64,000 nt of DNA, taken from NCBI RefSeq assembly GCF_007747215.1, contig NZ_CP036273.1, positions 2,836,322 through 2,900,321 on the forward strand. The letters run 5' to 3'. This DNA comes from Urbifossiella limnaea. Lineage in GTDB: Bacteria; Planctomycetota; Planctomycetia; Gemmatales; Gemmataceae. A program made the translations under genes and the position numbers. The notes beneath the pieces were generated by a model. That model saw only the letters and a list, made by a program, of their open reading frames with translations. It made no database searches and had not been told where the DNA came from. Below are positions 20,367-28,628 of the stretch, piece after piece. How positions within the stretch are numbered: position 1 is the stretch's first letter; each line of letters starts with the position of its first letter.

Positions 20367-20481
20367 GACTCGGTTCTCCGCACCTATTGTGGGTGGAACC
20401 TATGCCGCAACGGCCGGCGGTCGTCCAGCCGAACCGACGGCCGCCGTAGAATATCCGCCTTCCCTAACCCCCGGTGCCGCC

Positions 20482-21480
20482 GTGTCCGAGTTCCCCGGCT
20501 TCCCCACCTCCCGGCCGCGCCGGCTCCGCTCGCACCCGCTCCTCCGTGAGCTCGTCCGCGAGACGGAACTCTCCCCGCGTGACCTGATCCTGCCGCTGTT
20601 CGTGCGGCCGGGGAAGGGCGTGCGGCAGGAGATCGGCTCGATGCCGGGGAACTTCCAACTCAGCGTCGACACGCTCGTGGACGAAGTCGGCGCGGCCCGC
20701 GAGATGGGTATCGCGTCGTTCATGTTCTTCGGCATCCCCGCCACGAAGGACGCCACCGGCAGCAGCGCCCTGCACGACGAAGGGATCGTGCAGCAGGCGT
20801 TGCGGGCGACCCGGAAGGCGTTCGGCCGAGACGTGCTGCTGATCCCGGACGAGTGTTTCTGCGAGTACACCGACCACGGCCACTGCGGCGTTCTCCACAC
20901 CCGCGACGGCGTGACGGACGTGGACAACGACGCCACGCTGGCGAACCTCGCCGAGCAGTGCGTCAGCCACGTGAAGGCCGGCGCCGACATCGTGGCGCCG
21001 AGCGGGATGCTCGACGGCATGGTCGGGGCGATCCGCCGCGGGCTGGACGCGGCAGGGTTCGTTCACGTGCCGATCCTCAGCTACGCGGCGAAGTACGCGA
21101 GCGGCTTCTACGGCCCGTTCCGCGACGCGGCCGAGTCGCCGCCGCAGTTCGGCGACCGCAGCACGTACCAGATGGACCCGGCCAACGGCGACGAGGCGAT
21201 GAAGGAGGTGGCGCTCGACCTCGCGGAGGGCGCCGACATGGTGATGGTGAAGCCGGCGCTGAGCTACCTGGACATCATCCGCCGGGTGAAGGAGCGGTTC
21301 CGCGTGCCGGTGGCGGCGTACAACGTGAGCGGCGAGTTCGCCATGGTGAAGGCCGCGGCCGCGAAGGGGTGGATCGACGAGCGGCGGGTGACGCTCGAAA
21401 TCCTCACGAGCATCCGCCGCGCCGGAGCGGACATGGTGCTGACGTACCACGCGAAGGACGTGGCGAAGTGGCTGCGGTAG
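20482..21480 (+). CDS. hemB: Delta-aminolevulinic acid dehydratase (porphobilinogen synthase)
   Basis: A 332-residue enzyme that condenses two 5-aminolevulinate molecules into porphobilinogen in tetrapyrrole synthesis. The Schiff-base lysines are K204 ([17 protein letters not shown]) and K257 ([12 protein letters not shown]). The metal loop [14 protein letters not shown] keeps C125, C127 and C135, the three-Cys zinc type rather than the Asp-rich magnesium type. Translation begins at GTG 20482; a possible -10 TAGAAT lies at 20447. The gene stands alone, about 3.7 kb from hemP, so haem synthesis and haem-uptake genes are neighbours. Confidence 0.95.
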
Positions 21481-21543: not shown

Positions 21544-22590
21544 TTACCCCGTTAGCGCCGCGTGTATCCCGAGCGTGAGCACGGTCGCCGCCGCGGCGCT
21601 GAACACGAGCACCACCGCGCCGAGCTTGCGCGTGCCCTTCAACTGCCACCACATCACCAGCCCCGACACGCCCCAGAAGCACATCGTGCCGGCCATCACG
21701 TCCACCACCACCGCCCAGAACCACCGCGCGGTCTGCTCGCCCGGATACCCGTGAGTCGTGTGCAGCCGCAGCAGGAAGCGCCGCCAGCCGAGCTCGGTCG
21801 CGGGCGCGGCCCCTTCGGGCGAGCCGCTCACGGCCCCGGTCTGCGGGTTGTAGCTGGCCGTCCACGTGCGGCCGTCGGCCTCGACCGGGAAGGAGATGTC
21901 CGGCACCGACGTGACGGTCACCTCGCCGGTCGGGAAGCCGGTCCGCTCCAGGATCGTCGGCACAGCCGCCTTGAAACGGTCGTGCAGCTGGTCCGGCAGT
22001 TTCACGCCCTCGCCGGGGGCGTTGGTCGCGCCGCCCTTCATCCCCCCCCTCGTGCCGCCCTTGCCGCCCTTGTCGCGGCCGCCGGCCTTCGCCGCGCCGG
22101 TGGCGAACGGCGCCTTCTCCGGCTCCGCCTTCTCGACGGCCGGCGGCGTGACGCGGACGGTGCCGCCGCCGTTCTTAACGTCCAGCAGCACGCTGACGGT
22201 CTGGCTGTCGGCCTTCACGGTGGCGAACGCGAAGTCGCGGGCGAACTTTGCCGCGCCGGCCAGCTTGTACGGCGTCGCCGGCGTTTGCTGCTCGTTCAGC
22301 TTCGCCACGACCGCCTCGGCGACCGCGGTCGGGGCGGGCGCCTCGGCCAGTGCGGTGCCGGCGGTCGCGGCCGGGCCGAACGTCGTCGTCGGCTGGTCGC
22401 TGAACGCCGCGGGGTGGTTGAACAGGAACGCCGTGACGCCGTACAGCACCGCCCACGGGAACAGGAACAGCCCCAGGTACAGGTGCAGCCGGCGGACGAC
22501 GTGCATCAGCCGCTTGTGGAGCGGCCGCGGGCGCGGGGCGGCCGTGGGGGCGGGTTCGACTTCGGTCGGGTCGAGCCAGACGGTACTCAT
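21544..22590 (-). CDS. PepSY-associated membrane protein (PiuB-type iron-regulated)
   Basis: A 348-residue inner-membrane protein. A basic segment (PLHKRLMHVVRRLHLYLGLF) leads into the first membrane helix (about 35-58). A large periplasmic part holds PepSY-like features and a Gly/Lys-rich linker (about 175-200). Two further helices come near the C-terminus (WFWAVVVDVMAGTMCFWGVSGLVMWW and the last 25 residues). This 'Hx..HLYLG ... HTTHGY ... W..W' layout is that of PepSY_TM/PiuB proteins, often Fur-controlled and linked to iron or haem uptake. It is downstream of a lipoprotein and a pseudopilin gene. The start at 22590 is preferred; an in-frame ATG 20 codons upstream is possible. Confidence 0.8.
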   Translation of the reverse strand: MSTVWLDPTEVEPAPTAAPRPRPLHKRLMHVVRRLHLYLGLFLFPWAVLYGVTAFLFNHPAAFSDQPTTTFGPAATAGTALAEAPAPTAVAEAVVAKLNEQQTPATPYKLAGAAKFARDFAFATVKADSQTVSVLLDVKNGGGTVRVTPPAVEKAEPEKAPFATGAAKAGGRDKGGKGGTRGGMKGGATNAPGEGVKLPDQLHDRFKAAVPTILERTGFPTGEVTVTSVPDISFPVEADGRTWTASYNPQTGAVSGSPEGAAPATELGWRRFLLRLHTTHGYPGEQTARWFWAVVVDVMAGTMCFWGVSGLVMWWQLKGTRKLGAVVLVFSAAAATVLTLGIHAALTG

Positions 22591-22661: not shown

Positions 22662-22883
22662 CTACCGGCCTCTCTTCTTGCCCGCCTCGGCCAGCTTCCT
22701 CCGGGCGTCGTCGTCGAGGTTGTTCAAGACGTACGGGTCGGACTGCTCCTCGGCCGGCATCTTCCGGAACACCTCCCAGGTGATCTTCTTGCTCGGGTCG
22801 CCGGCCGCCGGCGCCGACGACCCGCCGCACCCGGCCGCAGTCAGCGCCAGGACCGCGGCGACTGCGCAGGACATTCGCTTCAC
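22662..22883 (-). CDS. Small lipoprotein
   Basis: A 73-residue protein with a lipoprotein signal: MKRMSCAVAAVLALTAAGC, lipobox LTAAGC with lipidated Cys19. The mature part is 55 residues, polar, with KITWEVFRKMPAEEQ and NNLDDDARRKLAEAG helices. I know no characterised family; small lipoproteins of this layout often follow DUF1559 genes in planctomycetes. It lies 13 bases after the pseudopilin gene and 71 bases before the PepSY gene, so the three are probably one operon. Confidence 0.75.
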   Translation of the reverse strand: MKRMSCAVAAVLALTAAGCGGSSAPAAGDPSKKITWEVFRKMPAEEQSDPYVLNNLDDDARRKLAEAGKKRGR

Positions 22884-22896
22884 GTCGTGAACTCCG

Positions 22897-23841
22897 TTAG
22901 TCGAGGGCGGTGAGGACTTCGCCGCCGTTGCGGCTGCCGAGGGCCTGGTAGGTGGCGTGCGGAATGGACTGGCGGATCAGCCGGGTGGACCCGTCGGCCA
23001 GGACGAAGTGTACCCCCTGCGGGTGAACGCTGCGGAACGAGTACAGACCCCGGTTCCACCAGGCGTCCCCGGTCGGGGCGACGGCCGGCTCGTCGGCCGT
23101 GTTCAACGGGGTGTTGGTCCACGTCCAGGACACGAACGGGTGGCCGTTGTGCCAGAACGTCCGCCCCGTCCGCGGCTGCCCGGCGTTCGGGCCGGACGTG
23201 TAGGTCCACCCGCGGATGGTCCAGTGCATCTCCCCGGCCAGCAGGGTGTTCGAGGTGCCGTCGGGTACCCCGGTCAGCGTCACCTTCCCGTGGATGGCCG
23301 GGACGATCATCCCGTCCGCCCGGGAGGCGTACAGGTGAACGGCCGGGTCCACCACCCGGTTGCCGGCGCAAAAGCCGTAGCTGCTCCACCCGGGGCCGGG
23401 GTCCGGGGACGGGGCCGGCATGGCCGGGGCGATGAACGTCTTCACCGGCTGCTGGGTGAGGGTCAGGTTGCTCCACCCGTCCGGCCCGGGGGTGGGGTCG
23501 GAGGAGGACAGGCCGGGCTGCCACCGCTTCGAGACGGCCTCCTGCTCGAGGTGCGGCAGGATGTCGGTGAAGGCGCTGTACAACCGGGCGTTGGTGGCGC
23601 TGCTCGACCCGCTGCCGCCCGCGGCCTCGGCGTAGTTCGCCGAGGGGAAGCGGTTGTTCGCGTCGTGGAACATGTGGGCGGCCAGCCCGATCTGCTTGAG
23701 GTTGTTCAGCGACTGGGTGCGGGCGGCGGCCTCGCGGACCTTCTGCACGGCGGGCAGGAGCAGCCCGATGAGGATCGCGATGATGGCGATCACCACCAGC
23801 AGCTCGATCAGGGTGAACCCGCGGGTACGAACACGACGCAT
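22897..23841 (-). CDS. DUF1559 prepilin-like protein
   Basis: A 314-residue type-II pseudopilin-like protein. The N-terminal methylation motif [20 protein letters not shown] (residues 7-26, prepilin cleavage after Gly8, Glu at mature +5) is followed by [20 protein letters not shown] and a DUF1559 body. The C-terminus has [11 protein letters not shown], the usual DUF1559 'H/V..A..DGS' end. DUF1559 proteins are hugely expanded in planctomycetes and their role is unknown. Here the gene heads an operon with a lipoprotein and a PiuB-type protein, behind a Fur-like box shared with hemP. Confidence 0.9.
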
Positions 23842-23985
23842 GGGGGCAGCCCTCCGGTTCCGGGGAACGGGGTCAGGCGAGCCGCGTTGCGACGGAGGGT
23901 GAGCCGCCCGGTGAGGGGCCGCGTCCCGAACGTTGGCGGAGCGTACTCGGCGGGCGGGTACTGCAGTTCAACCGCGGCACCCGGC

Positions 23986-24016
23986 CTTGTTGCAGATGAG
24001 ACACAATCTCAACAAG
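23986..24016. promoter_or_regulatory. Fur-like operator (TGAGA-n5-TCTCA within a longer dyad)
   Basis: TGAGA (23997-24001), 5 bases, TCTCA (24007-24011) equals the half-site layout of Fur boxes of the TGAGAATnATTCTCA type. A second dyad, CTTGTTG (23986-23992) with CAACAAG (24010-24016), encloses it. It sits just upstream of the hemP promoter candidate and 145 bases upstream of the divergent DUF1559 gene. Confidence 0.55.
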
Positions 24017-24021
24017 ACGCC

Positions 24022-24049
24022 TTTACCTTAGCCGGCGTCGGGATACAGT
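24022..24049 (+). promoter_or_regulatory. Candidate hemP promoter
   Basis: TTTACC (24022-24027), 16-base spacer, TACAGT (24044-24049), 5 bases downstream of the Fur-like dyad. Confidence 0.4.
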
Positions 24050-24152
24050 CAAGAACCAGTGGCGAAAAAATCGCACCGGATCGCTCCCAGATCGGGGAGC
24101 CGGTGTGGAAAAGCCGCTTCTGCTGATACCGCGTCTCACCCACGGGTGGCCC

Positions 24153-24326
24153 ATGCCCGATTCGCACGACGACGACCGCGCCGACATCCCCGCCGACGGC
24201 GAGCCCTCGCGCGTGCTCCGGGCCGCGGAATTGTTCGGCGACAGGCGCGAGGTGTGGATCGAGTTGGACGGCGTCCGCTACCGACTGCGGATCACGCGAC
24301 GGGGTAAGCTGATTCTTCAGAAGTAG
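24153..24326 (+). CDS. hemP: Hemin uptake protein HemP
   Basis: A 57-residue protein. The second half, VLRAAELFGDRREVWIELDG followed by VRYRLRITRRGKLILQK, matches the HemP family nearly end to end; family members end in YRLR-x-T-R-x-GKLILxK. HemP proteins are small factors required for or co-regulated with haem uptake and are usually Fur-controlled. The N-terminal 20 residues are acidic and variable. ATG 24153 is preferred to GTG 24105. The gene is divergent from the pseudopilin operon; no haem receptor or TonB gene is in the window. Confidence 0.85.
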   Translation: MPDSHDDDRADIPADGEPSRVLRAAELFGDRREVWIELDGVRYRLRITRRGKLILQK

Positions 24327-27238: not shown

Positions 27239-27316
27239 GCGAGCGGCCCGCGTGAGCGGGCTGTTCCTGAGCACGTCAACGCGCTCAGGAACAGCCCGCT
27301 CACGCGGGCCGCTCGC
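27239..27316. repeat. Long inverted repeat, family A copy 2
   Basis: 34-base perfect arms (27239-27272 and 27283-27316), 10-base loop. The 30-base arm core is identical to the copy at 1514-1591, while the loop and inner bases differ. The right arm encodes the C-terminal SERPA and TGA stop of hflX. Confidence 0.85.
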
Positions 27317-28628
27317 TCGCGCTCCCGTTCAGGTAGCGCACCTTCACGTCCGGCCCCGCGATGTGGCGGGCCAGGTGCCGCGGCAGGTGGCAGCGGATGA
27401 CCACCTCGTTCGACTCGTCGTGGAACTCCTGCCGGTAAATCTCCGCGTGGGCGTTCAGGAACGCCAGCACCCGCCCGTTCCCGGCCGTCGTCACCACTTC
27501 CGCCTCGGCGAAGTCGGCCGCCAGCGACGCCATCACCGCGTCTTCCAGCTCGGGGATGCCGGCCCCGGTCAGGCCGCTCACCGTCACCGCCTTCGGGTGC
27601 TGGGCCGTCAGCAGGTGCAGCCGCGAGTGGTCGGCCACGGCGTCCACCTTGTTCAGCACCAGGATCGTCGGCTTGTCGCCGCACCCGAGCTCGGACAGGA
27701 CGCTGTTCACCGCCTTGATGTGGTCCTCCGCGTGCGGGTTGCTCGCGTCCACGACGTGCAGCAGCAGCTTGGCGTGCCGCGCCTCGGAGAGCGTGGCGCG
27801 GAACGACGCCACGAGGTGGTGCGGCAGGTCGCGGATGAACCCGACCGTGTCCGACAGCAGCACCCGCCCCCAGTCGCGGATGCGCCACTGGCGGGTGCGC
27901 GTGTCGAGCGTCGAGAAGAGCTTGTTCTCGACGTACACGTCCGCCTTGGTCAGCGCGTTCATCAGCCGCGACTTGCCGGCGTTCGTGTACCCGACCAGCG
28001 ACACGGTGTGCTCGGAGCTGCGGCTGGCCACCTCGCGGTCCTTGCGGGCCTGCACCTCGGCGAGGCGGTCCTTCAGGTCGCGGATGCGGCCGCCGACGAG
28101 CCGGCGGTCCACTTCGAGCTGCGTCTCGCCGGGGCCGCGCAGGCCAATGCCGCCGCCCTTCTGGCGCGACAGGTGGGTCCACATCTGCTTGAGCCGCGGC
28201 AGCGAGTACTCGAGCTGCGCGAGTTCGACCTGCAACCGCGCCTCGACCGTCTGCGCGCGGGTGGCGAAGATGTCGAGGATGACCTCGCTGCGGTCCAGCA
28301 CCTTGACCCCGAGCGCCTGCTCCAGGTTGCGGGCCTGCGCGGGCGACAGGTCGTTGTCGAACACGACCACGTCGGCGTCCGTTTGCTCGACCAGCTCCTG
28401 GAGCTCCTCCACCTTCCCCTTGCCGACGTAGGTGCCCAGCTGCACCTCCTGCCGCTTCTGCGTCAGTTCGCCGACGACGGTGGCGCCGGCGGTCGTCGCC
28501 AGCCCGCGGATCTCGTCGCAGGGGTCGTTGGTTGTCCACGGCCGGGCCGGGAGCGCCACGCTGACCAGCACCGCCTTCTCGCTGGAAACCGAGAACTCGG
28601 CGCGGTTCGTCTCGAATGCCTTGCTGAT
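27300..28628 (-). CDS. hflX: GTPase HflX
   Basis: A ribosome-associated GTPase of 442 residues if started at 28628. The HflX N-domain (GTYVGKGKVEEL, FDNDLSPAQARNLE, RSEVILDIFATRA) is followed by a linker with GGIGLRGPGETQLEVDRR and the G domain (GYTNAGKS, DTVGFI, NKVD, SGLTGAG). HflX splits or rescues stalled 70S ribosomes. No standard start fits well: the only in-frame GTG (28694) lies inside the upstream gene and before a TACAAT. ATC at 28626-28628 has a perfect GGAGGT six bases upstream, so ATC initiation is proposed. The last residues and the stop come from the inverted repeat. Confidence 0.9.
   Translation of the reverse strand: MSKAFETNRAEFSVSSEKAVLVSVALPARPWTTNDPCDEIRGLATTAGATVVGELTQKRQEVQLGTYVGKGKVEELQELVEQTDADVVVFDNDLSPAQARNLEQALGVKVLDRSEVILDIFATRAQTVEARLQVELAQLEYSLPRLKQMWTHLSRQKGGGIGLRGPGETQLEVDRRLVGGRIRDLKDRLAEVQARKDREVASRSSEHTVSLVGYTNAGKSRLMNALTKADVYVENKLFSTLDTRTRQWRIRDWGRVLLSDTVGFIRDLPHHLVASFRATLSEARHAKLLLHVVDASNPHAEDHIKAVNSVLSELGCGDKPTILVLNKVDAVADHSRLHLLTAQHPKAVTVSGLTGAGIPELEDAVMASLAADFAEAEVVTTAGNGRVLAFLNAHAEIYRQEFHDESNEVVIRCHLPRHLARHIAGPDVKVRYLNGSASERPA

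Follow-up and report, generated by a model that had tools for sequence, protein, structure and literature searches.

A putative Fur-controlled iron-starvation divergon pairing hemP with a DUF1559 pseudopilin operon in planctomycetes

The Fur-regulated PepSY/DUF4198 operons are represented by Caulobacter CC3059-3063, by flavinylation-linked PepSY-like clusters and by FoxB and HiuB. PepSY and DUF4198 widely share operons or gene clusters (PMC8238504), both kinds of gene are strongly Fur-regulated in Caulobacter, DUF4198 being the most Fur-derepressed of their clusters (PMC3751524), and the PepSY protein HiuB is required for ferri-siderophore use (PMC12424826). The planctomycete operons described here have in common with them a PepSY_TM protein, a secreted DUF4198 protein and (as predicted) control by Fur. 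With the HemP/HmuP/ChuP haem-uptake loci of Proteobacteria they share a hemP, predicted to be Fur-controlled, beside envelope genes for presumptive iron acquisition; HemP/ChuP is a haem-binding regulator needed for iron-receptor expression (PMC9131926). The leading gene of the operon belongs to the planctomycete DUF1559 (PF07596, SBP_bac_10) pseudopilins, with which it shares the N-methylation motif, the pilin helix and the H-X9-DG C-terminus. In the literature, DUF1559 figures as a large planctomycete family without a known function, for which osmolyte binding has been guessed (PMC2754498); it is also the largest paralogue family of Planctopirus limnophila, with 68 genes, two of them essential (PMC10632474). 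A literature search on DUF1559 with iron, on planctomycete Fur regulons and on the consensus box reported below found no prior description.

The divergent locus and its boxes

We analysed a window of 64 kb, i.e. positions 2,836,322-2,900,321 of a planctomycete genome of the Gemmata kind that consists of one contig of 7.8 Mb. A sequence-only reading of this DNA had placed hemP divergently from an operon of a DUF1559 pseudopilin, a lipoprotein and a PepSY protein; this order was borne out, all four genes being located and their domains matched (the lipoprotein by sequence features). The features, in window coordinates, are:

20479-21480, convergent with the PepSY gene: hemB (ALAD, haem biosynthesis), next beyond PepSY
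21544-22590, minus strand: PepSY_TM (PiuB/FoxB-like) membrane protein (PF03929, E 2e-13)
22662-22883, minus strand: small putative lipoprotein of 73 aa, signal peptide with Cys box read in the sequence
22897-23841, minus strand: DUF1559 pseudopilin (PF07596 122 bits, PF07963, TIGR02532, TIGR04294), clade A by tree
23986-24016: outer dyad CTTGTTG / CAACAAG, flanking the inner dyad asymmetrically
23997-24011: Fur-type box 1, TGAGACACAATCTCA, on the DUF1559 side, position and sequence kept in relatives
24124-24138: Fur-type box 2, TGATACCGCGTCTCA, directly before hemP, with an equivalent second box in most relatives
24153-24326, plus strand: hemP, 57 aa from ATG 24153 (PF10636)

HemP matched PF10636 with 60 bits (curated cut-off 25), and the DUF1559 protein carries the prepilin N-methylation motif, the PF07596 domain and the H-X9-DG C-terminus, while the small lipoprotein ORF has no match in Pfam or NCBIfam. 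The earlier identification of hemP stands; its start is probably ATG 24153 and not GTG 24105, because the GTG would place box 2, which had been overlooked, within the gene. Box 2 ends 15 nt 5' of this ATG.

The inner dyad TGAGA-CACAA-TCTCA was present as read before and is the sole TGAGAN5TCTCA in the window, a pattern expected about 4e-5 times per 300-nt intergenic region of matching composition and about once per whole genome. As for the outer dyad, both arms exist (CTTGTTG at 23986-23992, CAACAAG at 24010-24016), but they are out of register with the inner one. The consensus on the DUF1559 side in relatives is TTGT-TGAGACwnArTCTCA-ACAA, so in the window the right outer arm (ACAA after TCTCA) alone is in register. 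The outer dyad was dropped as an element of its own, since its register is not kept among relatives. Boxes 1 and 2 both match the 7-1-7 Fur-type pattern, an inverted repeat akin to TGATAATNATTATCA, often with overlapping copies at a 6-nt offset; in other families, box copies shifted by 6 nt overlap in this way, e.g., TGACACTGAGTCTCAGTGTCA. Overlapping copies with a 6-nt offset are the arrangement typical of Fur boxes. A reading of the dyad as a terminator or RNA hairpin was also dropped: the dyad is located between divergent genes, no T run accompanies it, and the 15-bp palindrome recurs before unrelated iron genes. Elsewhere in the window, between two convergent genes, there is a long near-perfect inverted repeat at 27239-27318 (arms of about 29 nt, CGGCCCGCGTGAGCGGGCTGTTCCTGAGC), which reads as a strong hairpin or a small repeat element.

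Conservation of the pairing and distribution of the box

Our sample of hemP loci comprised 70 from the same family (69 genomes) and 40 from elsewhere in the class, spread over eleven other families. The palindrome TGAGAC-n3-rTCTCA occurs in nearly all loci of the family, mostly in two copies, one about 210-250 nt and the other about 85-130 nt ahead of the HemP domain. At 56 of the 70 family loci and 13 of the 40 loci of other families, hemP has a divergent DUF1559 gene no more than 900 nt away; the pair is found in 34 genera and six families, and pair plus box in 31 genera and six families. In loci with a divergent DUF1559, TGANAYNNNRTNTCA has 83 sites in the 31 kb made up by the 450-nt stretches ahead of hemP (2.67/kb) and 4 sites in the other 596 kb (0.0067/kb), an enrichment of about 400-fold over the remainder of those loci, and the reversed pattern gave zero sites there. 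The dyad, whose conservation the sequence-only reading had put forward as its test, is present in 60 of the 69 divergent hemP/DUF1559 loci, and the pairing that it feared might be fortuitous is not chance, given these frequencies and a share of DUF1559 of about 1% of genes. Several genomes found in the class-level search (e.g., G273, G279, G308, G324) hold two or three hemP genes; as a regulator, hemP is normally single per genome, and two or three are unusual.

The regulon was read by pattern searches of the genome. In the 7.8 Mb, TGANAYNNNRTNTCA occurs in only five places (reversed control: one), namely both hemP/DUF1559 boxes, feoA-feoA-feoB, bfd (Fer2_BFD) and one polysaccharide export locus; the same box therefore precedes the established iron genes feoAAB and bfd. 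The site at the last of these (L103, G000:C1:2483488-2483502, TGAGACTCGGTCTCA) lies between polysaccharide export/chain-length genes and is possibly a sign of iron-regulated exopolysaccharide, or possibly chance. The exact palindrome TGAGAYTNARTCTCA, searched without reference to hemP in 12 other genomes, gave 29 sites against 0 in the reversed control. Eleven of these are at DUF1559: ten lie ahead of the gene at a distance of 100-320 nt, and the eleventh is at a hemP/DUF1559 pair. The rest include bfd (5), feoA (4), flavodoxin (1) and an ExbB-like gene (1); boxes also occur at a hydrolase, at a pseudopilin outside DUF1559, at a SufR-like regulator and at Kelch or DUF3386 genes. If DUF1559 makes up 1-2% of genes, the chance that at least 11 of 29 sites fall at DUF1559 is about 1e-8 to 1e-11. 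Where hemP was not detected, in seven genomes of the family, there are 11 box sites: five at feoA, one at bfd and two at DUF1559, one of the latter followed by PepSY; on sequence inspection, the box also precedes a VIT1-like gene and a ferredoxin in these genomes, and one site has no clear assignment.

Some individual box-linked loci deserve mention. In L260 (G277), an exact box lies upstream of a pseudopilin gene other than a typical DUF1559, in the sole sampled genome with several TonB-receptor plug domains. Box-linked genes at L263, L254, L255 and L264 encode DUF3386, an S9-like hydrolase (in L255 divergent from bfd) and a SufR-like regulator, the latter divergent from a DUF971-like gene. 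In L164, L259 and L262, a Kelch beta-propeller is joined to DUF4198 or stands in its place; box-linked proteins of this type recur in planctomycetes.

DUF1559 clades and operon partners

DUF1559 is among the largest families, with 62 domain matches in the window's genome and 99 in the distant genome G146, and the box is specific within it. Of the 69 hemP-linked DUF1559 genes, 61 have it in the 450 nt before them, against none of 51 other paralogues of the window's genome, none of 29 paralogues of G146 outside clades A/B and none of 11 unrelated DUF1559 neighbours. In a FastTree phylogeny of 188 DUF1559 proteins, the hemP-linked members fall into clade A (41 proteins including that of the window, support 98) and clade B (21 proteins, support 100), with seven elsewhere; neither clade contains any of the 51 own paralogues, and the tree shows 21 label changes compared with 55.6 in shuffles. 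Of the ten DUF1559s that the motif search alone turned up, seven lie closest to clade A or B, as do both from the genomes lacking a detected hemP; most boxed DUF1559s belong to two clades. Genes of clades A/B that are unlinked to hemP retain the box (L240/L275, L174, L186, L256, L265, L309, L316), and the box thus tracks clades A/B and not merely the vicinity of hemP. The AlphaFold model of the window's DUF1559 protein is of medium confidence (pLDDT 73), and only the pilin helix, also seen by sequence search, is visible; nothing in the fold points to an iron or haem site, and Foldseek against the PDB matched the pilin helix only, with no E-value below 0.5.

In relatives, the genes that follow DUF1559 vary and are drawn from a second DUF1559, PepSY_TM, a lipoprotein and DUF4198, the last with or without a Kelch propeller. 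Of the 53 family loci with enough sequence, 37 hold a lipoprotein, DUF4198/Kelch or PepSY, or more than one of these, and lipoprotein homologues occur in the same position at about 13 divergent loci. The fixed four-gene set proposed earlier does not hold throughout, since 21 of the 53 testable family loci have PepSY and 28 have DUF4198/Kelch, and an invariant set was given up as gene content behind DUF1559 varies; PepSY is found at none of the 13 divergent loci outside the family and is absent from most divergent loci overall. The PepSY_TM protein combines the PF03929 match with three conserved histidines of the haem-ligand type, invariant among the aligned hemP-linked relatives (in RLH, FNHP and RLH..HGYP); it has no convincing PDB match by sequence, the solved FoxB included. 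The TonB-receptor plug domain PF07715 was not found in the window's genome nor in nine of the 12 other genomes tested, and the TonB-dependent haem receptor expected of HemP/HmuP haem-uptake loci is absent from both genome and locus.

Proposed role and comparison with known systems

We interpret the locus as a Fur-controlled iron-starvation divergon of hemP and a DUF1559 operon, most likely serving iron acquisition without TonB receptors, a reading to which we assign a probability of roughly 0.7. Boxes, regulon, conserved linkage and separate DUF1559 clades are established at the level of sequence, and regulation of hemP and the boxed DUF1559 operon by iron starvation is, on these comparisons, well supported; the earlier reading of an iron-regulated divergent locus gains from dyad conservation, from the non-chance pairing and from boxed DUF1559 genes far from, or without, hemP. 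We infer that Fur is the protein that binds the box and also the direction of regulation. The genome has a single Fur-family gene (PF01475, 89 bits), which has no box of its own, and one DtxR-type regulator gene (PF02742). When iron is sufficient, Fe-Fur would occupy both 15-bp boxes, on the DUF1559 side and before hemP, and silence both directions. When iron is scarce, HemP would be made one way and the DUF1559 pseudopilin, the lipoprotein and PepSY_TM (in relatives also DUF4198/Kelch) the other way. Pseudopilin and lipoprotein might then bind ferric iron, its chelates or haem, or present them, within the envelope or across it, PepSY_TM might reduce iron in the periplasm, and Fe(II) might enter via FeoAB, whose genes bear the same box; HemP could act as a (haem-responsive) regulator of these genes, the part that it plays for receptors in Proteobacteria. 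Capture and reduction of ferric or haem iron for FeoAB are suggested by the partner genes and the missing TonB receptors. The more far-reaching idea that planctomycetes without TonB-dependent receptors import ferric iron or haem by a Fur-controlled pseudopilus, a TonB-independent route through the envelope built of DUF1559, lipoprotein, DUF4198/Kelch and a PepSY reductase, with HemP as haem-responsive regulator, is tentative, and we would sooner bet against it.

Membership of the DUF1559 operon in the Fur regulon might also have nothing to do with iron uptake, the operon instead remodelling the envelope or surface (adhesion, secretion, biofilm) and PepSY serving respiration or redox homeostasis. 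The pilin-like nature of DUF1559 proteins, which have no known ligand, the many loci without PepSY and the boxed polysaccharide locus, one of five genome boxes, are consistent with this, as is the response of Rhodopirellula DUF1559 genes to salt, cold and heat (PMC2754498); however, the recurrent partners DUF4198, PepSY and HemP are iron/haem acquisition proteins elsewhere, and we regard remodelling as the less likely role, though one to be taken seriously. That a DtxR/MntR-type regulator reads the box instead of Fur, the regulon still being one of metal, is suggested by the PF02742 gene beside the single Fur-family gene, but is improbable, as the 7-1-7 TGAnAyTnArTnTCA with 6-nt-offset overlaps is the Fur pattern and the box stands before iron genes (feo, bfd, flavodoxin) rather than manganese transporters. 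With 60-100 DUF1559 genes per genome, one might adjoin hemP by chance and the dyad serve hemP alone; yet pairing across genera and families, two boxes per locus (one on each side), boxed DUF1559 genes without hemP and at least 11 of 29 motif matches at DUF1559 (chance about 1e-9) speak against it. This explanation, contradicted by these counts, has a negligible probability and was dropped.

If the proposed iron-starvation divergon is correct, it would give a subset of DUF1559 proteins a first concrete job, as products made under iron shortage, and the link of clades to iron, together with a ready box consensus, would make DUF1559 function testable in a planctomycete that is amenable to genetics. 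The iron supply of planctomycetes that lack TonB receptors is a further question on which it bears. Each part of the system is of a known kind; what is new is how the parts are combined, and that clades of DUF1559 are assigned to an iron-starvation regulon. Compared with the PepSY/DUF4198 operons, the operon of the window is without a TonB receptor, and no DUF2271 or ApbE was noticed; the planctomycete operon is led by a DUF1559 pseudopilin and a lipoprotein, faces hemP, and its DUF4198 may bear a Kelch propeller. The neighbours of hemP are here a pseudopilin operon, whereas in Proteobacteria they are a TonB receptor and hmuSTUV. Set against the DUF1559 pseudopilins at large, the iron box is restricted to certain clades (A, B and a few others).
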